A stretch of 26,847 nt of DNA from a virus: positions 1-26,847 of the IMG/VR virus record IMGVR_UViG_3300025828_000153; one strand, 5' to 3'. Position 1 is the first letter of the stretch. Every line of letters begins with the position of its first letter. The position numbers and the translations under genes are program-made. Below the pieces are notes generated by a model. It was not told the DNA's origin, searched no databases, and saw nothing but the letters and a program-made list of their open reading frames with translations. Below, one piece after another: positions 19,721-26,847 of this stretch.

Positions 19721-19916
19721 AGTTCCTTTGAGACTTACGGAGTTACTTATGCGACCTCTGGGCGACTTTGTGGCCCACGGAAATTTTTTCTTTTGGATGG
19801 ATTTGAAAACCCCTTTGAGGGCCACGGAAAACCTTGAAGTCTTATAAAGACCTCGTGGACGCATACTTTTATAGATTGGAGGGACCCAGCGTTTTTAGTT
19901 AAGGGTAGGGGGTATA

Positions 19917-19934
19917 GGGGGGGATCAACCCCCC
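19917..19934 (-). terminator. GC hairpin after the 80-aa gene
   Basis: GGGGGGG-ATCAA-CCCCCC (plus-strand reading) forms a six-base-pair G/C stem with a five-base loop, about 10 bases past the stop of the 80-aa gene. No T-run follows on the minus strand, so it is either a weak terminator or a transcript-end stabiliser. Confidence 0.45.
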
Positions 19935-19942
19935 ACACTGGC

Positions 19943-20185
19943 TCAACCGCTGGTCTTGAAGTAGGCTGCACGGTTGCCCTCTACCGTGAGGTCACGGGAG
20001 GAGGTGGCGTGCCCAGCGTATGCCTGCCCGCGGCGGTTGGTGTTGGTACGGGGGCCCTTGGTCATGGAGAACACCAGCTCGCTCTTCTTCGCCTTACGGG
20101 TGGGGAGCACGGTCACCTTCACAGTCTTACCAGCGGCGTTGAGGTCGGCGGCGATGGCGGTGAGGTTGTCGATGGAGGAGGTCAT
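19943..20185 (-). CDS. 80-residue hypothetical protein (GC-rich island)
   Basis: I start at the ATG at 20185-20183 (MTSSIDNLTAIAADLNAAGK). The longer frame to 20413 merely crosses the upstream gene and promoter. A modest AAGGA lies just before the ATG. The N-terminal half looks helical, and a central VKVTVLPTRKAKKSELVFSM looks like beta strands. The C-terminal third is basic and glycine/asparagine-rich (GPRTNTNRRGQAYAGHATSS). No named domain is recognised. It has its own promoter at 20210-20238 and is followed by a GC hairpin. Confidence 0.65.
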   Translation of the reverse strand: MTSSIDNLTAIAADLNAAGKTVKVTVLPTRKAKKSELVFSMTKGPRTNTNRRGQAYAGHATSSRDLTVEGNRAAYFKTSG

Positions 20186-20209
20186 GTCCTTGGTGTGGTT
20201 GATGTGGCT

Positions 20210-20238
20210 ATTGTAGGGACGAACGGGGAGGAGGGCAA
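20210..20238 (-). promoter_or_regulatory. Sigma70-like promoter of the TTGCCN/AGCCACAT family
   Basis: Minus strand: TTGCCC (20233-20238), 17-base spacer, TACAAT (20210-20215), then AGCCACATCAAC. The -35 box lies inside the hairpin at 20231-20245. Confidence 0.65.
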
Positions 20239-20245
20239 GGCCCTC
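20231..20245 (-). terminator. Hairpin at the stop of the 66-aa gene, overlapping the next promoter
   Basis: GAGGGC-AAG-GCCCTC is a perfect six-base-pair stem with a three-base loop. It covers two bases of the stop codon of the 66-aa gene (20244-20246) and the -35 box of the following promoter. There is no T-run. It could act as terminator, operator or both. Confidence 0.45.
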
Positions 20246-20444
20246 AGGCGATATCCAGGAAGGCATCGGGGTGAACCCAGACGACCTCACAGACCTCCTC
20301 CTCGCCTGCTTGGAGATAGTCCTGCCACTCCTCATAGATGGCGATGGCGTTGGCATCATCCCCTGCATCCAGAGCGGCATTGATGAGACTGTCGGCCCAC
20401 TCCATGTTGCCATCCATGAGTTCGGCGCGTTGAGTGTCGGTCAT
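20244..20444 (-). CDS. 66-residue acidic hypothetical protein
   Basis: The ATG at 20444-20442 follows its own promoter (20467-20495) by about 23 bases; the longer frame to 20495 would run through that promoter. The product (MTDTQRAELMDGNMEWADSL onward) is acidic and helical, with ALDAGDDANAIAIYEEWQDY in the middle, and ends in VWVHPDAFLDIA. No domain is recognised. An acidic early phage protein of this size could mimic DNA or bind a host protein, but nothing here shows it. Confidence 0.65.
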   Translation of the reverse strand: MTDTQRAELMDGNMEWADSLINAALDAGDDANAIAIYEEWQDYLQAGEEEVCEVVWVHPDAFLDIA

Positions 20445-20466
20445 GTCGTTGGTGGTTGACTTGGCT

Positions 20467-20495
20467 AGTATAGGGCCTGAGGCGCCCTCAGGCAA
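20467..20495 (-). promoter_or_regulatory. Sigma70-like promoter with palindrome in the spacer
   Basis: Minus strand: TTGCCT (20490-20495), 17-base spacer, TATACT (20467-20472), followed by AGCCAAGTCAAC. A perfect 8-base inverted repeat (20475-20493) fills the spacer and enters the -35 box. Confidence 0.7.
20475..20493. terminator. Perfect inverted repeat GCCTGAGG-CGC-CCTCAGGC
   Basis: An 8-base-pair stem with a 3-base loop, containing the stop codon (20488-20490) of the 114-aa gene. It occupies the -10/-35 spacer of the next gene. As RNA it can be a terminator of the upstream gene; as DNA it is placed where a repressor site would sit. Confidence 0.5.
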
Positions 20496-20832
20496 GGCGC
20501 ATCCCAGAACGGAACGGAACCGTGAAGTGCTCAGTGCCGTTCCAGAGGCGGCAGAACCATTCCCACTTGTGCTGGAAGATGCCCTCGCCAGGCAGACCGT
20601 GTTGTGAGAGAATCGCGTTTAGGCGGGACTTGGTGGTGACGGACTGCCACCCGCCATCGTGAAGGGTGACGCACTCAGCAGAGACCTCAGCGATCAGGTT
20701 GCCATGGAGGCGGATCTCAGTCACTGCCAACTCACCCTTGTCGTTGAAGAAATTCACGACCTCGGTGTTGCCAGATTTCCAGTCACGACCCTCGGTGATG
20801 GCGGCGTTCATGAGGCGTTCGATCTTGCGCAT
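20488..20832 (-). CDS. 114-residue conserved phage hypothetical protein
   Basis: The product starts MRKIERLMNAAITEGRDWKS. It has a beta-rich centre (AVTEIRLHGNLIAEVSAECV) and a TTKSRLNAILSQHGLPGEG segment followed by IFQHKWEWFCRLWNG. I recall proteins of this form (MRKIE...W.S.NT...LHGN.IA...TTKSRLNA.L) in many unrelated phages, but know of no proven function. It is encoded in the GC-rich island, with a -10-like TAGAAT at 20859-20864, 26 bases upstream. Its stop lies in a perfect hairpin shared with the next promoter. Confidence 0.8.
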   Translation of the reverse strand: MRKIERLMNAAITEGRDWKSGNTEVVNFFNDKGELAVTEIRLHGNLIAEVSAECVTLHDGGWQSVTTKSRLNAILSQHGLPGEGIFQHKWEWFCRLWNGTEHFTVPFRSGMRLA

Positions 20833-20858
20833 GGTTGCGGTTCGTTTGGTATGTGAGA

Positions 20859-20864
20859 ATTCTA
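20859..20864 (-). promoter_or_regulatory. -10-like element TAGAAT for the 114-aa gene
   Basis: TAGAAT on the minus strand is followed by TCTCACATACC. It overlaps the stop codon (TAG, 20862-20864) of the 76-aa gene. No good -35 box is seen 17 bases upstream, so activity is uncertain. Confidence 0.4.
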
Positions 20865-21092
20865 GACGGTCACGGTCTGGTGGGACTGGAGACAGTGACG
20901 GTTGATCCAGTGTCCCATGCTGGTGTTGCCAGAGTACCAGAGCAACCCCAGGATAGCCCGACGGCTGACGTGAGTGTGGCGATACTCAGCCAGAGGACCT
21001 TTGAACCAGCGGACCCGTGCCGTGCCAGTGATCGGGTTCAGGCGGAGGGTCCAGACGCTGGTGCTGTTGTTGCAGTTGATGGGGAAGCGCAT
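20862..21092 (-). CDS. 76-residue hypothetical protein, possibly KTSC-like
   Basis: The ATG at 21092-21090 has an AGGA a few bases upstream and a family promoter at 21114-21142. After MRFPINCNNSTSVWTLRLNP comes ITGTARVRWFKGPLAEYRHT, then HVSRRAILGLLWYSGNTSMG and HWINRHCL. The order beta-beta-(Y/H)VS-small-residue helix-SxG-hydrophobic-I resembles the small KTSC domain found in phage and bacterial proteins. The signature residues are not all there, so this is a guess. The protein is basic. Confidence 0.65.
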   Translation of the reverse strand: MRFPINCNNSTSVWTLRLNPITGTARVRWFKGPLAEYRHTHVSRRAILGLLWYSGNTSMGHWINRHCLQSHQTVTV

Positions 21093-21113
21093 TGCGGTCC
21101 TGTTGATGTGGCT

Positions 21114-21142
21114 AGTATAGGGCTGAGTGGGGAAGGGGGCAA
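21114..21142 (-). promoter_or_regulatory. Sigma70-like promoter, TTGCCC-N17-TATACT
   Basis: Minus strand: TTGCCC (21137-21142), 17-base spacer, TATACT (21114-21119), followed by AGCCACATCAACAGGACC. The -35 overlaps a six-base-pair hairpin at 21133-21148. Confidence 0.7.
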
Positions 21143-21148
21143 CCCCTT
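21133..21148 (-). terminator. Hairpin at the stop of the 86-aa gene
   Basis: AAGGGG-GCAA-CCCCTT (plus-strand reading) is a perfect six-base-pair stem. It enters the stop codon of the 86-aa gene (21147-21149) and overlaps the -35 box of the next promoter. Confidence 0.45.
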
Positions 21149-21407
21149 AGAGGTCCTCCATCATCTCAGTGATCTGGCGATCGTTGATGCAGGCAGAATC
21201 CCACTTGACCCCATCGGGCGTTTGACCAATGTGGCGACCGATCATGCCCTCAGTCATGCAACGCACGAACTTCTCAAAGGGGGTCTCATCGTTGCCACAG
21301 AACTCAACACATGCCTTAGCGGTGTTGTAGAGGAACTCATCGTTCTGAATCCAGAGGGCAACATTCCAGGTTTCGTAGTTGGTCCAACCGTTGTAGGTGA
21401 GTGCCAT
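21147..21407 (-). CDS. 86-residue phage protein of the NGWTNYETWN type (DUF7249-like)
   Basis: The product begins MALTYNGWTNYETWNVALWI, then QNDEFLYNTAKACVEF. The N-G-W/Y-x-N-Y-E-T-W-N-V-A-L-W signature is a widespread phage hypothetical family that I recall as DUF7249; the name is from memory and should be treated as such. The rest is acidic and ends DRQITEMMEDL. No function is known to me. It has a -10-like TAGACT at 21436-21441, and its leader shares CAGTTCAAACAAA with the 64-aa gene at 22259. Confidence 0.8.
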   Translation of the reverse strand: MALTYNGWTNYETWNVALWIQNDEFLYNTAKACVEFCGNDETPFEKFVRCMTEGMIGRHIGQTPDGVKWDSACINDRQITEMMEDL

Positions 21408-21435
21408 GTTCGTTTGCTTTGTTTGAACTGATGTT

Positions 21436-21441
21436 AGTCTA
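21436..21441 (-). promoter_or_regulatory. -10-like element TAGACT for the 86-aa gene
   Basis: TAGACT on the minus strand is followed after five bases by CAGTTCAAACAAA. The same leader at the same spacing occurs below the -10-like TATTGT at 22476-22481. The -35 box is poor. Confidence 0.45.
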
Positions 21442-21454
21442 CAGGGTCAGCGGG

Positions 21455-21634
21455 TCAGTCCCGATCGCTGATGTGCCAGTAACCGAATTGGCTGGTCTCA
21501 GGTGCAGGGGTCAGGATCTCATCCCCAGAGGCGACCTCAGCGCGCATGGCAGCCCAACGGCGTTGTTGCTGGATCACGAATTCAGTGTAGTCTGCCAGGA
21601 TCAGGGGCAGATCGGGTTGAGTGGTTTTGTTCAT
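21455..21634 (-). CDS. 59-residue hypothetical protein with almost no 5' leader
   Basis: I start at the ATG at 21634-21632 (MNKTTQPDLPLILADYTEFV). The longer frame back to 21739 runs through the promoter and the upstream gene. The -10 box CATACT ends just six bases before this ATG, so the message may be leaderless. The product is mostly helical at first (QQQRRWAAMRAEVASGDE), with a short polar tail ending WHISDRD. No domain is recognised. Confidence 0.55.
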   Translation of the reverse strand: MNKTTQPDLPLILADYTEFVIQQQRRWAAMRAEVASGDEILTPAPETSQFGYWHISDRD

Positions 21635-21640
21635 GTGGCT

Positions 21641-21669
21641 AGTATGGGTCAGGATGGGCAGGAAAGCAA
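21641..21669 (-). promoter_or_regulatory. Sigma70-like promoter, TTGCTT-N17-CATACT
   Basis: Minus strand: TTGCTT (21664-21669), 17-base spacer, CATACT (21641-21646), then AGCCACATGAAC. This keeps the family AGCCACAT tail, but here the ATG of the 59-aa gene lies inside that tail. Confidence 0.6.
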
Positions 21670-21674
21670 GGGCC

Positions 21675-21689
21675 GAGGGCCGGTCCCTC
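21675..21689 (-). terminator. Hairpin at the stop of the 73-aa gene
   Basis: GAGGG-CCGGT-CCCTC is a five-base-pair stem touching the stop codon of the 73-aa gene (21688-21690). It lies six bases above the next -35 box. Confidence 0.4.
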
Positions 21690-21909
21690 AACCGACCACC
21701 AGATCGGCAATTGCCTCCATGCCATTGACCCATTCCCACTTGGTGATCTGCTCAGTAGCAGGAACCTGGCGACGCATGTCATGCTGACGCTGGAGACCAA
21801 CAGCGAACTGCTGGTTCTCCATGTAGGGTCCGATGTGGTCCACCTTGGTGACCCGACCCGTGAAGGTGGTCCAGGTGCGACGGATGTAGAAGTTGGTTTC
21901 GTTTGTCAT
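21688..21909 (-). CDS. 73-residue hypothetical protein
   Basis: The product begins MTNETNFYIRRTWTTFTGRV and continues TKVDHIGPYMENQQFAVGLQ. The centre is rich in Q, R and H, and the end is VNGMEAIADLVVG. It is encoded in the GC-rich island. A -10-like TAGAAT (21916-21921) ends six bases before the ATG, another nearly leaderless arrangement, with no clear -35. No domain is recognised. Confidence 0.6.
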   Translation of the reverse strand: MTNETNFYIRRTWTTFTGRVTKVDHIGPYMENQQFAVGLQRQHDMRRQVPATEQITKWEWVNGMEAIADLVVG

Positions 21910-21961
21910 GCAGACATTCTAGTCACGGGTGTGGACGGATCGTGGGTCCAGGTGGACGGTT

Positions 21962-22093
21962 TCAGAACTGGGCTAGGAGTTTCTTAGTCTCTTGATCAAA
22001 ATCCTCCTCTGGAGTATCATCGAACACTGCCATGAGATCTTCTTCACGAATGTCGAAGATTTCACCTTGCATGTCTTGAATTTCATCCCACAT
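21962..22093 (-). CDS. 43-residue very acidic protein
   Basis: The ATG at 22093-22091 follows CTGAGG by about eight bases. The product starts MWDEIQDMQGEIFDIREEDL and ends ETKKLLAQF; about a third of residues are D or E. It is the third gene of a close series (22453 to 21962) whose members are separated by only a few bases. No domain is recognised. Confidence 0.6.
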   Translation of the reverse strand: MWDEIQDMQGEIFDIREEDLMAVFDDTPEEDFDQETKKLLAQF

Positions 22094-22103
22094 AATTTAA
22101 ACC

Positions 22104-22256
22104 TCAGTTGTTGAAGAGTTTGGTGATCTTTTGAAGTGCAGTATCGTAGTCTTCAATCCCTTCCATCTCAGGATCTTCGTACTGACGATTTTGATCCAAC
22201 AGAGTGTAGATCAGGTCCCACTCACTATCAGTAAAGAACTCTTTGATGTTGTTCAT
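22104..22256 (-). CDS. 50-residue acidic hypothetical protein
   Basis: The ATG at 22256-22254 lies two bases after the TGA of the 64-aa gene, a coupled arrangement. The product starts MNNIKEFFTDSEWDLIYTLL and continues DQNRQYEDPEMEGIEDYDTA, ending KLFNN. It is mainly helical and acidic. No domain is recognised. Confidence 0.65.
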   Translation of the reverse strand: MNNIKEFFTDSEWDLIYTLLDQNRQYEDPEMEGIEDYDTALQKITKLFNN

Positions 22257-22258
22257 TA

Positions 22259-22453
22259 TCAGTTCAGGACGAAAGTTTTCTCAGAGATTACATCCATGTC
22301 CTCAGACATTTTCACATAGTTCCACTCATTCTCATCCTCACCTTCTTGATACAAATGGACGAAACCTTGAGTATCAGTACGAACCCAACATGCATCGAAG
22401 TTCTCATCATCGAACTCATAACCCGATGCAATCAAACCTTGAACGAAAGTCAT
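22259..22453 (-). CDS. 64-residue acidic hypothetical protein
   Basis: I start at the ATG at 22453-22451 (MTFVQGLIASGYEFDDENFD). The longer frame to 22498 would enter the promoter and leader. The product continues ACWVRTDTQGFVHLYQEGED and ends VISEKTFVLN, a small alpha/beta protein rich in D and E. The leader carries CAGTTCAAACAAA below a -10-like TATTGT, as in front of the 86-aa gene. It heads a three-gene series with the 50-aa and 43-aa genes. Confidence 0.65.
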   Translation of the reverse strand: MTFVQGLIASGYEFDDENFDACWVRTDTQGFVHLYQEGEDENEWNYVKMSEDMDVISEKTFVLN

Positions 22454-22475
22454 GTGATTTGTTTGAACTGAAGTA

Positions 22476-22481
22476 ACAATA
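22476..22481 (-). promoter_or_regulatory. -10-like element TATTGT for the 64-50-43-aa series
   Basis: Minus-strand TATTGT lies five bases above the shared leader CAGTTCAAACAAA, the same spacing as at 21436-21441. No strong -35 is seen. Confidence 0.4.
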
Positions 22482-22535
22482 ACCCATCTGGTGACCAATG
22501 GGGAGAATAGTGGACGGTTCCAGAATTGGGCTTGG

Positions 22536-22559
22536 CTCTATGCGTCTATGCGCATAGAG
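22536..22559 (-). terminator. Nine-base-pair hairpin after the 78-aa membrane gene
   Basis: CTCTATGCG-TCTATG-CGCATAGAG is a perfect stem with a six-base loop, three bases past the stop of the 78-aa gene. No T-run follows on the minus strand. Its core, TATGCGTCTATGCGCATA, matches 16 of 18 bases of the hairpin at 23441-23458. Confidence 0.5.
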
Positions 22560-22561
22560 TA

Positions 22562-22798
22562 TTATAATCCTGAATTCTCTTCAACAATACCACGAAGTCC
22601 TGCCGATATCTTATCAATAACAGCTAACGTCTTAAGTATAAACGAACGAAGTCTAGTAGACATATCATTCTCTTTCCAAGATCTTGTAACGAACTGAGTT
22701 AGACCTACAATCACAGCAGCAGCTGTGACTAATACATACACGAACTGTTGTAGTTGTACATTAGACAACACTTGATCCTTTAGTTGTTGATAGTTCAT
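22562..22798 (-). CDS. 78-residue protein with one membrane segment
   Basis: I start at the ATG at 22798-22796 (MNYQQLKDQVLSNVQLQQFV). Residues about 19-37 (FVYVLVTAAAVIVGLTQFV) form one hydrophobic span. A basic and helical tail follows (TRSWKENDMSTRLRSFILKT), ending IVEENSGL. One span plus a charged helix fits a small inner-membrane protein; holin-like, anchor or toxin roles are all possible and none is shown. A good promoter (TTGCCA-N17-TACAAT, 22851-22879) lies upstream. The frame stays open to 23074, but that stretch is repeat DNA with odd composition, so I leave it out. Confidence 0.65.
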   Translation of the reverse strand: MNYQQLKDQVLSNVQLQQFVYVLVTAAAVIVGLTQFVTRSWKENDMSTRLRSFILKTLAVIDKISAGLRGIVEENSGL

Positions 22799-22850
22799 TG
22801 GTGGCTTTAGAATACTCAGAGCTTTAATGTTTTCAACCCTGACAGAGTTG

Positions 22851-22879
22851 ATTGTACACAGTATATTCATACATGGCAA
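22851..22879 (-). promoter_or_regulatory. Sigma70-like promoter for the 78-aa membrane gene
   Basis: Minus strand: TTGCCA (22874-22879), 17-base spacer, TACAAT (22851-22856). It is back to back with the plus-strand promoter at 22884-22912; only four bases separate the two -35 boxes. Confidence 0.65.
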
Positions 22880-22883
22880 GCCC

Positions 22884-22912
22884 TTGACATAAACACACGC
22901 AGGCTTTATAAT
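22884..22912 (+). promoter_or_regulatory. Perfect consensus sigma70 promoter
   Basis: Plus strand: TTGACA (22884-22889), 17-base spacer, TATAAT (22907-22912). Both boxes and the spacing match the consensus exactly, the only such site I found in the window. Transcription should begin near 22919, directly before the first repeat of the TGCGCAG region. No convincing gene follows for 600 bases. Confidence 0.75.
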
Positions 22913-22920
22913 ATTACACA

Positions 22921-23202
22921 TATACTGCGTACGGGTAGGTGTGGTGGGCCTATGTAAATGCCTGCGCAGTATATACCCACACATTATATGGTGCGGGTAG
23001 GGGTGAGTGGGGTGATGCGCAGTATATACACATATTCTTGCGCAGTACATATGCTGCGCCACACCTAGCCACAAGACGCGCCACTGCGCAGTAGATACCC
23101 TGCGCGACGCGGCATATCCCCTGCGCGGTATATAAGTACGCAGTCCCCCACCCGCGTACCCCTAGGCTACTGCGCAGGCCCCCGCGCAGGCAATATACTG
23201 CG
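22921..23202. repeat. Cluster of TGCGCAGTATATAC-type short repeats
   Basis: Copies start at 22963 and 23016 (identical over 14 bases), then come diverged forms at 23039, 23085 and 23122. Shorter TGCGCx cores lie at 23055, 23101 and 23171. Inverted forms are TATACTGCG at 22921 and ATATACTGCG near the right end (23193-23202). The core ACTGCGCAGT (23083-23092) is a perfect palindrome. Spacing is irregular (about 15-55 bases), so this is neither a CRISPR nor a simple tandem array. Confidence 0.7.
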
Positions 23203-23427
23203 ACCAGCCCTCCAAGTGGCCATAAAGACTTCGCAATACTTCGAAGGGTATGGTAGGATGGCTGGTTATAAGGTCCTGGTATAAAACTTTGTGGGTCTCG
23301 GAGTATTATGTTGCCATCTCGGAGGTTTTATGGTAGCGTGCGCGCTAAGACTACAAGACCTCAGCACCTTTATAAGCATTTAGAGAGGCATACCTAGAGG
23401 GCTTCAAAGATACATAAACACTCTATG

Positions 23428-23470
23428 AGCCTTAAGTCTTTATGCTTCTATACGCATACAAGGCTTTTTT
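23428..23470 (+). terminator. Intrinsic terminator
   Basis: AGCCTT (23428-23433) pairs with AAGGCT (23460-23465), and inside it TATGC (23441-23445) pairs with GCATA (23454-23458). A run of six T ends at 23470. A second near-palindrome, TTAAAAAAGGCTTTTTTAA (23481-23499), follows and repeats AAGGCTTTTTTA 27 bases downstream, giving a double stop before the oxygenase gene. Confidence 0.65.
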
Positions 23471-23521
23471 ACAGCTTAATTTAAAAAAGGCTTTTTTAAT
23501 CAATAACCTTCTATTTACCAC

Positions 23522-24046
23522 ATGAACAAAACCTCATTATTGAACGTCTACAAGAATATACTTACACCAGAAGAACATGATACATGTGATAATATCCTAC
23601 GTGGCTTTGGATGGATATTTGGTTTTAAATCTGATCTAGGAGATAAGGATCACAAAGACAACATACCCTTTTGGAAACTACCTCTAGATCATGAGCCTTT
23701 CTTTACTCAGCATATGTTTAATATGATTGAGCAAAACACTGAAATGAAGTTTGAGTTACTAGAGGTCTATTGTAATGGTCAAACATACGCACAAGATGGG
23801 TATCCACATATAGATAACGTACATGGAGAAACACATACCTTTCTCTACTATGCAAATAAAGACTGGAACTTAACATGGGGTGGGCAGACAGTCCTTCTAG
23901 TAGATGGTAAAAAAGTAGGAATTGATCCATACCCTAACAGGGCCATATTGTTTAGTACTGATCTAGTACATTATGGAGAGGCATATAATCAATTCTGTAG
24001 AGATTTAAGAATGACTGTTTGTTATAAGTTACGGGAGATTACTTAA
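23522..24046 (+). CDS. 2OG-Fe(II) oxygenase superfamily protein
   Basis: A 174-residue protein and the only plus-strand gene in the window. It has the iron-binding triad of 2-oxoglutarate dioxygenases: H96-x-D98 (GYPHIDNVHGE) and H150 (FSTDLVHYGEA). Downstream R160 or R163 (CRDLRMTVCYKL) could bind 2-oxoglutarate. The FLYYANKDWNLTWGGQTVLL stretch is the usual core strand and turn of prolyl-hydroxylase-like members. Cyanophages carry many such genes; substrates are mostly unknown and may be proteins, nucleic acids or small molecules. No clear ribosome site or own promoter is seen, and two terminators lie upstream. The 3' end overlaps the opposite-strand 98-aa gene by 18 bases. Confidence 0.88.
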   Translation: MNKTSLLNVYKNILTPEEHDTCDNILRGFGWIFGFKSDLGDKDHKDNIPFWKLPLDHEPFFTQHMFNMIEQNTEMKFELLEVYCNGQTYAQDGYPHIDNVHGETHTFLYYANKDWNLTWGGQTVLLVDGKKVGIDPYPNRAILFSTDLVHYGEAYNQFCRDLRMTVCYKLREIT

Positions 24047-24325
24047 CTCTTTAACATAATACTCCTGTTCTGGACTATCAATACTAGGACGGCTTTGGAT
24101 GTATGTGAGTTCGTTCCAGGACTGAACATAACAGATTACCAATACTCTTTCATTCCTATGAAACGTTCCTATTGATTGATCTTCTACTGGTTTAGGCCAT
24201 ACTTTCGTTTCAATCGTAATGTAGTCTGGGCACTTGAAATAAACCCACCCTTCTACACTATGAGATCCCTTGTTCCATATAACATAGTCATTGACTTGTG
24301 GAGAATAGGTTAGGACGGATTGCAT
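24029..24325 (-). CDS. 98-residue hypothetical protein
   Basis: The product starts MQSVLTYSPQVNDYVIWNKG, then SHSVEGWVYFKCPDYITIET. A basic segment follows and a beta-rich RVLVICYVQSWNELTYIQSR comes near the end. The GWVYFKCPDYITIE pattern looks like a small SH3-like or beta-barrel fold; I believe close relatives occur in cyanophages but cannot name the family. It is the last gene of the minus operon from 26404. Its ATG overlaps the end of the 54-aa gene by 16 bases. The 3' end overlaps the oxygenase gene tail to tail. Confidence 0.75.
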   Translation of the reverse strand: MQSVLTYSPQVNDYVIWNKGSHSVEGWVYFKCPDYITIETKVWPKPVEDQSIGTFHRNERVLVICYVQSWNELTYIQSRPSIDSPEQEYYVKELSNLP

Positions 24326-24474
24326 ACGATGACAGCAGTGTAAGGATCTGGTTGTGTGCAGAAGTAGGTTGGATTGGCGGGTTCTAATGAAACGATTTGA
24401 TTGAGAGTATAAAGAGCAATGGCAAACTGCATGAAGGGTAATGTTTTGACTATAGTGTCACGATAGTTTTTCAT
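24310..24474 (-). CDS. 54-residue protein with hydrophobic N-terminal segment
   Basis: A short gene supported by its junctions: the ATG (24474-24472) overlaps the upstream TGA by four bases (ATGA), and the end overlaps the 98-aa gene. The product starts MKNYRDTIVKTLPFMQFAIA and continues LYTLNQIVSLEPANPTYFCT, ending VIVCNPS. A basic start followed by a hydrophobic stretch (about residues 11-30) fits a signal anchor or an exported peptide with two cysteines. No domain is recognised. Confidence 0.6.
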   Translation of the reverse strand: MKNYRDTIVKTLPFMQFAIALYTLNQIVSLEPANPTYFCTQPDPYTAVIVCNPS

Positions 24475-24830
24475 TCGTCAGTTAAATGATCGGCACAATT
24501 TAATGGAGTGTTGGGTGTGCAATTCATCGCTTCTTTTAGGGCTTCAGTTACATTCTCCTTGAATGAACGATAAGGAATAAAGATCTCATCTTCCTCAGTC
24601 TTATAGTCCTGATGAGTTTTCTTGAACTCAGTCTCTACATCATACAATAGAGATTGCACAATGTCGTTGATGGTTTCAATGGACTTTGGCGTGAGTGAGT
24701 GCCATTCAAAACCAGGGAACATATCATCCTTGACACGGTTAAGTAGGGCTCTCTTACAATGCCATTGACTATCAAAGATCTGGGTAAATGCTTCCCAATC
24801 GTGTTGGGATTTGAAATGTGGGATACTCAT
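24471..24830 (-). CDS. 119-residue hypothetical protein
   Basis: The product starts MSIPHFKSQHDWEAFTQIFD and continues SQWHCKRALLNRVKDDMFPG. The middle is helical (SIETINDIVQSLLYDVETEF) and the tail acidic with two cysteines (NCTPNTPLNCADHLTDE). The ATG overlaps the stop of the 94-aa gene by four bases (ATGA), and the stop overlaps the next ATG likewise. No domain is recognised. Confidence 0.75.
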   Translation of the reverse strand: MSIPHFKSQHDWEAFTQIFDSQWHCKRALLNRVKDDMFPGFEWHSLTPKSIETINDIVQSLLYDVETEFKKTHQDYKTEEDEIFIPYRSFKENVTEALKEAMNCTPNTPLNCADHLTDE

Positions 24831-25111
24831 TTGTTATTCAACTCCATGTAATCTCTTGACGCATAAAACAACTCATCACGCCAGTTACGACCAGCAATGT
24901 CAAATGTAAAACCTAACTTACCAATAGAAAGTAGGAATGAGAATAGTTTACCATATCCTACCGTGATTTGGACATAAGGAAACTCAATCCAATTACCATA
25001 CTCTCCAACATCAAAAGCCACCTGAAGTAGAGAATAGTTCTTTGTAGTAAGGATCGTCATATAATACTCCTTACCAAAGTCTTCACGACAGCCGAATTGA
25101 ATGAGTTTCAT
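24827..25111 (-). CDS. 94-residue hypothetical protein
   Basis: The product starts MKLIQFGCREDFGKEYYMTI. The alternating hydrophobic pattern of YSLLQVAFDVGEYGNWIEFP and YVQITVGYGKLFSFLLSIGK suggests a beta-sandwich or small barrel. The end is acidic and helical (RNWRDELFYASRDYMELNNK). An AAGG-containing site lies ahead of the ATG. It follows the previous gene by 29 bases and overlaps the next by four (ATGA). I recall similar proteins in phages, without a function. Confidence 0.75.
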   Translation of the reverse strand: MKLIQFGCREDFGKEYYMTILTTKNYSLLQVAFDVGEYGNWIEFPYVQITVGYGKLFSFLLSIGKLGFTFDIAGRNWRDELFYASRDYMELNNK

Positions 25112-25140
25112 TGAGGTTCACCCTTGATAGTATTTCTAAA

Positions 25141-25383
25141 TTAGCAGAAATCCAGGACGGACACTGATAGTGTTCTACGCACTGGTGGCCGCATGGAGGT
25201 GTATGCTGTGGTTGGCCATGATACCTCATCTCCTGGTTTTTGTGCATTGATTGGTGCATAAAACTTACCAGTCTTTTTACAAACAAAACCCCAAACAGTC
25301 CATACTCTTTCAGTAGTGTAAGTATAAACGTCTGGGTGCATGAGTTTGATAATGTCAAACTTTGCGTTGAATGGTTCAATCAC
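25141..25383 (-). CDS. 80-residue hypothetical protein (GTG start preferred)
   Basis: The frame is open from an ATG at 25470, but that start would overlap the previous gene by 95 bases. A GTG at 25383-25381 (read as VIEPFNAKFDIIKLMHPDVY) overlaps the previous stop by only eight bases, so I prefer it. The product continues TTERVWTVWGFVCKKTGKFY and then APINAQKPGDEVSW, a mixed beta pattern with KKTGKFYAPIN that looks conserved. It ends in a basic segment. No named domain is recognised. If the ATG is used the protein has 109 residues. Confidence 0.65.
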   Translation of the reverse strand: MIEPFNAKFDIIKLMHPDVYTYTTERVWTVWGFVCKKTGKFYAPINAQKPGDEVSWPTTAYTSMRPPVRRTLSVSVLDFC

Positions 25384-25594
25384 ATACTTGTGATTTGTTG
25401 GTGGCAAGTGAAAGTTGTCGGGCAAGTTCAATCCTAGTTTCGATGAGCCTTTGTTTGAGATAGTCTTCATAATCTAGACCAGTAACAGCATCCAATGCAT
25501 TGTTGACTTGTGTGATTGCATGACGCAATTTAATCACTTGTTCATTTTCCACACGATACCATTTCACAACTTCATCATAGAGTTCGGCTTGCAT
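25376..25594 (-). CDS. 72-residue helical hypothetical protein
   Basis: I start at the ATG at 25594-25592, one base after the TGA of the 146-aa gene. The frame extends further upstream only as a shadow of that gene. The product starts MQAELYDEVVKWYRVENEQV, then IKLRHAITQVNNALDAVTGL, with a second charged helix (DYEDYLKQRLIETRIELARQ) and end SQVCD. It is probably two coiled-coil-like helices. No domain is recognised. Confidence 0.7.
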   Translation of the reverse strand: MQAELYDEVVKWYRVENEQVIKLRHAITQVNNALDAVTGLDYEDYLKQRLIETRIELARQLSLATNKSQVCD

Positions 25595-25595
25595 T

Positions 25596-26036
25596 TCAGA
25601 AACGTTCTGGGATTTCTTGATAGGAGTATCCATCGGCTTTAACATCAGGTTTGTTTCGTTCAGTGTCCCAATAATACTTTGACTTTTCAAGTGCGTCAAG
25701 TTCAGCACGTTTGGTGTAGTAGTCGGCTTCAGCAAGATTGTACTTTCGTTGGAAATACTTATCATCCTCTTGTTGTAGTTGCAATGGACGATGACCACTC
25801 ACAACTTTCATAAGAGTTTGAGCATTCTCCTTCTGTTTCCCGTGATAATCAATCAGGTCCTGAATTGCAGTGCGGAGATCCTCAAAGAAAGCATCAACCT
25901 CACCGTCTTGCATATACTCATCTACACTATCTTGTAGACGGGATGCACGTTGTTTGTTGAACTCTTTCTTCCAATACTCATCAGAGTTGTTGATCACTGG
26001 ACGACCTTCAGTAGTTTCAGTTTCTTTCAGTTTCAT
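25596..26036 (-). CDS. 146-residue helical hypothetical protein
   Basis: The product starts MKLKETETTEGRPVINNSDE and continues YWKKEFNKQRASRLQDSVDE. It is charged and helical almost throughout, with heptad-like stretches from about residues 25 to 75 and 90 to 125, consistent with a coiled coil. It ends SYQEIPERF. The ATG overlaps the previous TGA by four bases (ATGA), and the next gene starts one base after its stop, so it is firmly in the operon. No enzyme motif is visible. Confidence 0.75.
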   Translation of the reverse strand: MKLKETETTEGRPVINNSDEYWKKEFNKQRASRLQDSVDEYMQDGEVDAFFEDLRTAIQDLIDYHGKQKENAQTLMKVVSGHRPLQLQQEDDKYFQRKYNLAEADYYTKRAELDALEKSKYYWDTERNKPDVKADGYSYQEIPERF

Positions 26037-26404
26037 GCGGCCACCTCATACAGAGCGACATACTTACGATTACCAATATCATAACATGTCCAAGAACCAT
26101 TGACAAATGTGTATGCATACTCACCAGTCACATCATCAGTCAGTTTGTGGTATGCATCCTCATTCATAGAGAGTTCGGGATCAACGTTACGATCACCTTT
26201 GATTGCATAATACTCAGGTTCACCATTGTCAGTCATGCAGGTAGACATGTCACCACCATCAATCAACTCACGGACATCATCAACGTCAGTGTAGTTGTTG
26301 ACCAGATACTTACCAAGACCATCAGGATAGCCATCCCAGTGATGATACACAGAGACGATAGAACCATCTTTGAGTTGATAGCCAATTCTTGAACGGGTTG
26401 CCAT
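26033..26404 (-). CDS. 123-residue conserved phage protein, operon head
   Basis: I start at the ATG at 26404-26402 (MATRSRIGYQLKDGSIVSVY), matching the opening MATRS-x-I...DG-x-(V/I)...(Y)-x-HWDGYP of a widespread phage hypothetical family I recall. The product continues HHWDGYPDGLGKYLVNNYTD, then VDDVRELIDGGDMSTCM, and near the end YAYTFVNGSWTCYDIGN. It is acidic, with no catalytic motif I know. A -10-like TACAAT (26429-26434) lies 24 bases above the ATG and a GC hairpin just beyond it, making this the likely first gene of the operon to 24029. Confidence 0.8.
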   Translation of the reverse strand: MATRSRIGYQLKDGSIVSVYHHWDGYPDGLGKYLVNNYTDVDDVRELIDGGDMSTCMTDNGEPEYYAIKGDRNVDPELSMNEDAYHKLTDDVTGEYAYTFVNGSWTCYDIGNRKYVALYEVAA

Positions 26405-26428
26405 TGTTTGTTTGTTAATGTCAGTAGA

Positions 26429-26434
26429 ATTGTA
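26429..26434 (-). promoter_or_regulatory. -10-like element TACAAT for the 26404-24029 operon
   Basis: Minus-strand TACAAT lies 24 bases above the first ATG of the operon. No good -35 box is seen; the region where it should be abuts the hairpin at 26442-26461. Confidence 0.45.
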
Positions 26435-26441
26435 CCAGAAG

Positions 26442-26461
26442 TCGGCCCAGTCTTGGGCCGA
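26442..26461 (-). terminator. Eight-base-pair hairpin TCGGCCCA-GTCT-TGGGCCGA
   Basis: A perfect stem with a four-base loop, 16 bases past the stop of the 80-aa gene at 26478 and directly above the next -10 box. There is no T-run. The stop-hairpin-promoter order matches the pattern in the GC-rich island. Confidence 0.5.
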
Positions 26462-26477
26462 TGCAGTAGTTATCATA

Positions 26478-26720
26478 TCACATCTCACCGAACATTTCAT
26501 CGAAGAGGTTGTCACCAGCGTCCTTTGCCTCACGACGCTCACACTCATAATCGATCGCGTCACGCATCTGGAGCAGAGCCATTTGGGTTTGCTTCAGTTT
26601 GTCCATTTCAACGTTGATGTAGTGGAGACGGTTGTTGATTTGAACGCGATCCATACCGTCAACGGTGGTGACGGTGTGATCCATTCCGTTGATGGTGCGG
26701 GTTTGGTCTGCGATGATCAT
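26478..26720 (-). CDS. 80-residue helical hypothetical protein
   Basis: I start at the ATG at 26720-26718, which has GAGAGGA about six bases upstream. The product starts MIIADQTRTINGMDHTVTTV, then DGMDRVQINNRLHYINVEMD and KLKQTQMALLQMRDAIDYEC. The second half is a long charged helix ending NLFDEMFGEM, probably a coiled coil. It has its own promoter of the AGCC family at 26743-26748. No domain is recognised. Confidence 0.7.
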   Translation of the reverse strand: MIIADQTRTINGMDHTVTTVDGMDRVQINNRLHYINVEMDKLKQTQMALLQMRDAIDYECERREAKDAGDNLFDEMFGEM

Positions 26721-26742
26721 GGGTGTTCCTCTCAACATGGCT

Positions 26743-26748
26743 AATATA
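26743..26748 (-). promoter_or_regulatory. -10 element TATATT of the AGCC promoter family
   Basis: Minus-strand TATATT is followed by AGCCATGTTGAGAGGA. It shares the AGCC after the -10 box with the promoters at 20210, 20467, 21114 and 21641. The ATG inside AGCCATG is not used; the real start lies after GAGAGGA. The -35 is weak. Confidence 0.45.
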
Positions 26749-26802
26749 CCCGATCTGGCGGGTCTCGGCGGGGATGGTGGACAGCCAGGTGACTGGCCAC
26801 CC

Positions 26803-26847
26803 TCACCAGTTGACGTATGTCATGTCGGGATAGATTCCCATCTCTTC
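26803..26847 (-). CDS. C-terminal end of a gene cut by the window edge
   Basis: The last 14 codons and stop of a minus-strand frame are visible: EEMGIYPDMTYVNW, then TGA at 26805-26803. A hairpin follows just below it (GCCAG-GTGA-CTGGC, 26784-26797, extended by GGTG/CACC). The stop-hairpin-promoter order is again the same as in the GC island. Too little is present to identify it. Confidence 0.5.
   Translation of the reverse strand, partial: EEMGIYPDMTYVNW

Follow-up and report, generated by a model that had tools for sequence, protein, structure and literature searches.

The window, a virus record of 26,847 bases, carries genes for T4-like baseplate proteins (gp6, gp8 and a wedge protein resembling gp25) and is thus a fragment of a T4-like cyanophage. 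Near its right end lies an intergenic gap of ~550 bases that a first-pass annotation had treated as a single feature; it is two modules, both on the + strand (Table 1). Module A consists of a promoter, P1, and a folded non-coding sequence, and module B of a second promoter, P2, a conserved box and an A+T-rich tract. Immediately to the left of the gap, a block at 19750-22000 has 55-61% G+C vs ~38% for the genome, and an intergenic 26-mer, GTGGACGGTTYCAGAAYTGGGCTWGG, is repeated at 21952-21977 and 22510-22535, where shuffles predict 0; the repeat also occurs in S-CAM9, S-8S5x and the IMG/VR contig L013, and a related motif precedes small genes in other cyanophages. The gene to the right (23522-24046) matches Pfam 2OG-FeII_Oxy_3, yet the PHROG that it matches over its whole length, PHROG 274, is labelled DNA endonuclease V, a label that looks wrong.

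Table 1. Features of the intergenic locus, in window coordinates.
Feature	Position	Strand	Description
P0	22851-22879	-	Divergent promoter TTGCCA-N17-TACAAT, back to back with P1
Module A	22884-23290	+	P1 and folded non-coding sequence
P1	22884-22912	+	Exact TTGACA-N17-TATAAT; predicted start near 22919
H1 hairpin, P1 RNA	22920-22974	+	Outer stem 22920-22931/22963-22974
H1 inner stem and loop	22935-22940/22948-22953	+	Loop GUGGUGG, 22941-22947
Hairpin run	22985-23140	+	GC-stem/AU-loop hairpins with TGCGCAGTATATAC repeats; variable, number differs between lineages
Best-conserved stretch of P1 RNA	23145-23202	+	C-rich segment, AGGCTAC, CGCAGGCAATATACTGCG; columns invariant in four lineages
3' hairpin, P1 RNA	23203-23266	+	ACCAGCC...GGCTGGT, inner CTTCG/CGAAG
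P2 spacer copy	23297-23310	+	TCTCGGAGTATTAT, 21 bp upstream
Module B	23311-23507	+	P2, conserved box and A+T-rich tract
P2	23311-23339	+	TTGCCA-N17-TAGCGT, conserved spacer
Conserved box	23340-23374	+	Just past P2; GCGCGC[CT][AT]AGANNAC..GCAC..TTTA
A+T-rich tract	23464-23507	+	Candidate DNA unwinding element, perhaps also a terminator
Decayed DnaA box	23465-23473	+	TTTTTTACA, aligns with TTTTTCCACA of S-PRM1 and S-8S5x

Searching phage records with blastn, we found the same gap, devoid of any annotation, in five Kyanoviridae (S-CAM9, S-PRM1, S-8S53, S-8S55 and S-8S56), whereas S-SCSM2R has only a small part of it; pattern scans of IMG/VR added the contigs L008, L010, L011 and L013-L018. A fourth, more distant lineage carrying module A is represented by L075/L083 (contigs of 119 and 116 kb), whose assignment combines an H1 covariance model match (E 0.44, weak alone), blastn matches, down to 8e-14, in the C-rich part, and a promoter order identical to that of the window. 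Module A is thereby kept in four lineages, spanning S-CAM9, S-PRM1, S-8S53/55/56 and IMG/VR contigs. Its distribution is restricted, since a model of the P1 hairpin (R1) has no match in S-SM2, S-SCSM2R, DSL-LC02, Sf-FS3 or Sf-CH8; nor does R1 match any of the 80 IMG/VR loci listed as having two DnaA boxes. Among bacterial genomes, cyanobacteria yielded no P1 RNA, and two chance-like matches came from a Rikenella and an Actinomycetota MAG. In the record of S-8S53 (OQ504982; 1-2650 and the record end), the last bases repeat the start inside the P1 RNA, 449 nt being identical, so that the linear record derives from a circular assembly opened inside the element.

The exact TTGACA-N17-TATAAT promoter named in the first-pass annotation is indeed present: P1 is the only 12/12 site in 20000-26847, and it is conserved in the aligned relatives with 17-18 spacing, being weaker in L075/L083. 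A promoter similar to P0 occupies the same place in these relatives. The −35 boxes of P0 and P1 lie a few bases apart and form an inverted repeat, TGTCAAGGGCTTGCCA (22851-22912; also in loci L002-L017 and L075), mostly with TTGACA on one side and TTGCCA on the other, the stronger side being swapped in L015/L016. On the − strand, the putative P0 transcript (upstream of 22850) starts with a conserved CUCUGNCAGNG..UGA in most lineages, possibly a leader hairpin of the small-gene cluster.

The strongest hairpin of the predicted P1 RNA, H1, sits in the 5' part and had been overlooked. Its stem letters are exchanged wholesale across lineages (AUAUACUGCG, AACAUAAAGCGC or ACAUAAUACACA) while pairing is kept, with 93.4% of the cells paired vs at most 53% in slid controls (12 sequences). 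Both sides have changed in 8 of the 19 pairs, and such changes amount to 30 cells vs 11 in shuffles, none of 500 shuffles being as high, although the independent events are few because the 12 sequences fall in only four lineages. The loop UGGUGG is unchanged in all 12. H1 therefore displays the compensatory base changes across lineages by which a structured non-coding RNA is recognized. Toward the 3' end, two of the pairings noted earlier (23203-23213 with 23256-23266, and 23229-23233 with 23242-23246) belong to one hairpin in the window, which is re-formed with other letters in most lineages but is absent in the lineage L075/L083, and RNAalifold found no compensatory pairs in this 3' half of the P1 RNA. 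The third pairing (23266-23274 with 23366-23375) falls away: by eye it is not kept in most relatives, and P2 lies between its arms. Taken as a whole, the RNA folds only mildly more stably than shuffles, by 1-4 standard deviations, and the same holds for the antisense, so that the sense strand is not favoured. A pseudoknot between the loop and the C-rich segment, and pairing of the P1 RNA with host Yfr1, were both considered and dropped, neither being consistent across lineages by eye.

Like the first-pass annotation, we see no convincing gene in the gap. When close relatives are compared, most indels are 1 or 2 bases long or have other lengths not divisible by 3, which argues against a conserved protein, and a coding test found no reading frame common to the relatives. 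Whether curated thresholds or a cutoff of E≤5 were applied, Rfam gave no match for the P1 RNA, only chance hits. This includes the covariance models of GOLLD and ROOL, which had been suggested for comparison; the P1 RNA resembles these RNAs in being long, non-coding and multi-hairpin in a phage genome, but matches them in neither sequence nor structure even at E≤5. The models of manA, wcaG and PhotoRC-II, structured RNAs of T4-like cyanophages (PMC2864571), also have no match here, and those RNAs sit in gene leaders whereas the P1 RNA does not. Together, conserved sequence, compensatory changes in H1, and the lack of both a reading frame and an Rfam match sustain the proposal of a new structured RNA after the consensus promoter for the 5' two thirds of the gap. 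The 3' third has a promoter of its own and is a separate element with a far wider distribution; its best interpretation is a replication origin, not a part of one 550-nt RNA.

In relatives, P2 of this second element reads TTGACA/TTGACT-N17-TAGAAT/TACAAT, followed by the box GC[AG]CGC[CT][AT]AGATNAC...GAGCACATTTA. The P2 spacer may resemble T4 early promoters. The repeated TCTCGGAG noted earlier exists, and corresponds to this spacer and its upstream copy; separately, of the S-CAM9 isolates L002 and L009, one has a copy more than the other of a 21-nt repeat, CACAAGACCCTGAGCACTTTA, immediately downstream of P2. A sequence-only model of P2 and the box (R2), built without DnaA-box clusters, matches 14 of 19 complete cyanophage genomes, at a single place in each, including Syn9, Syn19 and S-PM2 at weaker scores; a second match in S-8S53 is the end-of-record overlap. 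The element lies at about 19.2-19.3 kb in S-PM2, about 52.6 kb in Syn9 and about 140.8 kb in S-PRM1. In the same 19 genomes R2 has no match in P-SSM2, P-SSM4, P-HM2 or Sf-CH8, and the element of S-SM1 was seen by eye. The locus is independent of its flanking genes, and in S-SM2, DSL-LC02 and S-SCSM2R module B has an orientation opposite to that of the surrounding genes. The terminator claimed for the end of the gap is doubtful: the terminator scan did not report it, and the imperfect A/T-rich inverted repeat with a T-run at 23460-23498 was demoted because the related tracts, such as AAAAAACCTTTTTT in S-SM2, lack a G+C stem and look more like an A+T-rich unwinding tract.

After P2, many genomes carry, along with the A+T-rich tract, copies of TTTTCCACA, the 9-mer cyanobacterial DnaA box (PMC4674748), direct or inverted and often 21 bp apart. 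Exact boxes occur at 2.8/kb in the 260 nt after P2 (21 P2 loci, not all independent) vs 0.016-0.035/kb in four whole genomes, an enrichment at module B of ~100-fold with a combined P of about 5e-9 for four genomes. Furthermore, all exact pairs within 30 nt in 22 records adjoin module B (S-PM2, S-SM2, Syn9, Syn19, S-SM1 and DSL-LC02), and reversed-pattern controls gave zero. An independent IMG/VR scan for two boxes 12 nt apart returned at least 80 usable loci, some with seven or eight boxes on both sides of P2. R2 lies within 600 nt of the boxes in 35 of the 80 loci listed, and in those 35, 155 of 158 exact boxes are ≤600 nt from R2 vs ~13.5% expected by length; the loci were chosen for having two boxes, and the fair measure is that R2, built without the clusters, falls beside them. 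No exact box follows P2 in the window, its closest relatives, S-CAM9 or L075/L083, and Bellamy, SynMITS9220M01 and S-SCSM2R are without boxes at the element, which implies that DnaA is not needed everywhere. As the boxes of the window have decayed, its copy may rely on transcription alone or have lost function. We found nothing relevant in the open-access literature linking cyanophages to a DnaA box or a DnaA-dependent origin.

The layout of module B recalls the T4 origins oriF and oriG, ~100 bp in size, in which a promoter is followed by an A+T-rich unwinding element and the transcript forms an R-loop that primes synthesis (PMC3016281). Like these, module B is a short intergenic element of a T4-like phage in which an A+T-rich tract follows the promoter, here within ~100-170 bp; transcription by the host polymerase is a further T4 feature that we assume to be shared. 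The two differ in that P2 has a sigma70 −35 box (TTGMCW) and no MotA box, and so is no MotA-dependent middle promoter, and in that module B is present in one copy per genome, with a conserved box after the promoter and, in many relatives, flanking DnaA boxes. To our knowledge, DnaA boxes are not known from T4 origins. Such clusters adjoining an A+T-rich tract, found in many relatives, are instead a feature of cyanobacterial chromosomal oriC (PMC4674748), from which module B differs in that its genome is that of a lytic phage, its promoter is of an early type and dnaN is not its neighbour.

It is the combination of a T4 oriF/oriG-like layout with host DnaA boxes that leads us to propose module B as an origin, for which sequence support is good. 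In the four genomes for which GC skew was computed, it is monotonic and thus uninformative, giving no origin signal; a single theta origin was predicted earlier for Syn9 (PMC2984593), and may or may not coincide with module B. In the proposed mechanism, P2, a sigma70-type promoter, would drive transcription through the conserved box into the A+T-rich tract, where the transcript would form an R-loop and prime leading-strand synthesis by analogy with T4, and host DnaA would help to open the duplex where boxes remain, several of which flank module B in most relatives. With moderate confidence, we read the intergenic locus as a probable replication origin of a T4-like cyanophage, to which a structured RNA has been added.

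Module A would, on this origin model, supply an origin-linked structured transcript. P1 and P2 share a strand, with P1 430 bp farther upstream, and the P1 RNA, a folded non-coding transcript of ~390 nt up to P2, could run on through P2 into the A+T-rich tract as a second primer or a regulator of the origin. All P1-bearing loci with a sequenced 3' part also have P2 and the A+T-rich tract, while many P2 loci are without P1. Because P1 transcripts would enter the tract via P2, a primer or origin-control role is plausible, though we advance it tentatively; the association may also reflect mere shared neighbourhood or inheritance in one gap. ColE1 RNA II is a folded primer transcript, some hundred nt long, that starts upstream of the replication start and runs toward it. 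The P1 RNA resembles it in layout, with no known sequence relation and a putative primer role. More speculatively, T4-like cyanophages might start replication at a hybrid origin, uniting a T4-style transcript-primed tract with host DnaA boxes, to which four lineages added an upstream P1 RNA as folded primer or regulator, in the manner of RNA II but in a lytic phage, the boxes then decaying.

Alternatively, the P1 RNA could be a free-standing early regulatory RNA, unrelated to the origin, whose invariant UGGUGG loop and C-rich segment engage a host target, protein or RNA, in trans. The consensus promoter, a loop that stays fixed while the stem letters change, the lack of a fixed downstream gene and the divergence from the small-gene cluster all fit such an RNA, but in the loci collected it always accompanies module B and its target is only putative, and we regard both this role and this mode of action as somewhat unlikely. 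It is also conceivable, if unlikely, that the boxes serve to titrate host DnaA and so block host replication, or to place the P2 transcript under DnaA control, with no origin involved; boxes stand on both sides of a promoter in many loci and DnaA also acts as a transcription factor, against which we set the adjoining A+T-rich tract, the single copy and the promoter-to-A+T layout shared with oriF/oriG. That H1 and the repeats are an inverted-repeat element at the DNA level, a protein site or cruciform, seems improbable. The stem letters of any inverted repeat would covary, and in several relatives the antisense fold is about equally stable; however, one G-U pair is invariant in 12 of 12 sequences and several G-C to G-U changes are kept as pairs only on the + strand, fitting an RNA of that strand, and the inner stem, bulge and asymmetric loop do not make a simple palindrome. 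Finally, the idea that the entire 550 nt is a long 5' leader controlling the 2OG-Fe(II) oxygenase, the next + strand gene in the window and L015, is very improbable and already refuted for the family, because the downstream gene varies among relatives, being another + gene in S-CAM9, S-PRM1/L010/L013 and S-8S5x and convergent in five (L008, L011, L014, L016 and L017).

T4-like cyanophages are abundant, yet their replication origin has, as far as we know, only been predicted so far (one theta origin, in Syn9) and never mapped. The single-copy, sequence-defined candidate in S-PM2, Syn9, Syn19, S-SM1, S-SM2 and others makes the origin directly testable. The P1 RNA would add a new family to the cyanophage RNAs. 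Should host DnaA be involved, replication would start differently in these phages than in T4.
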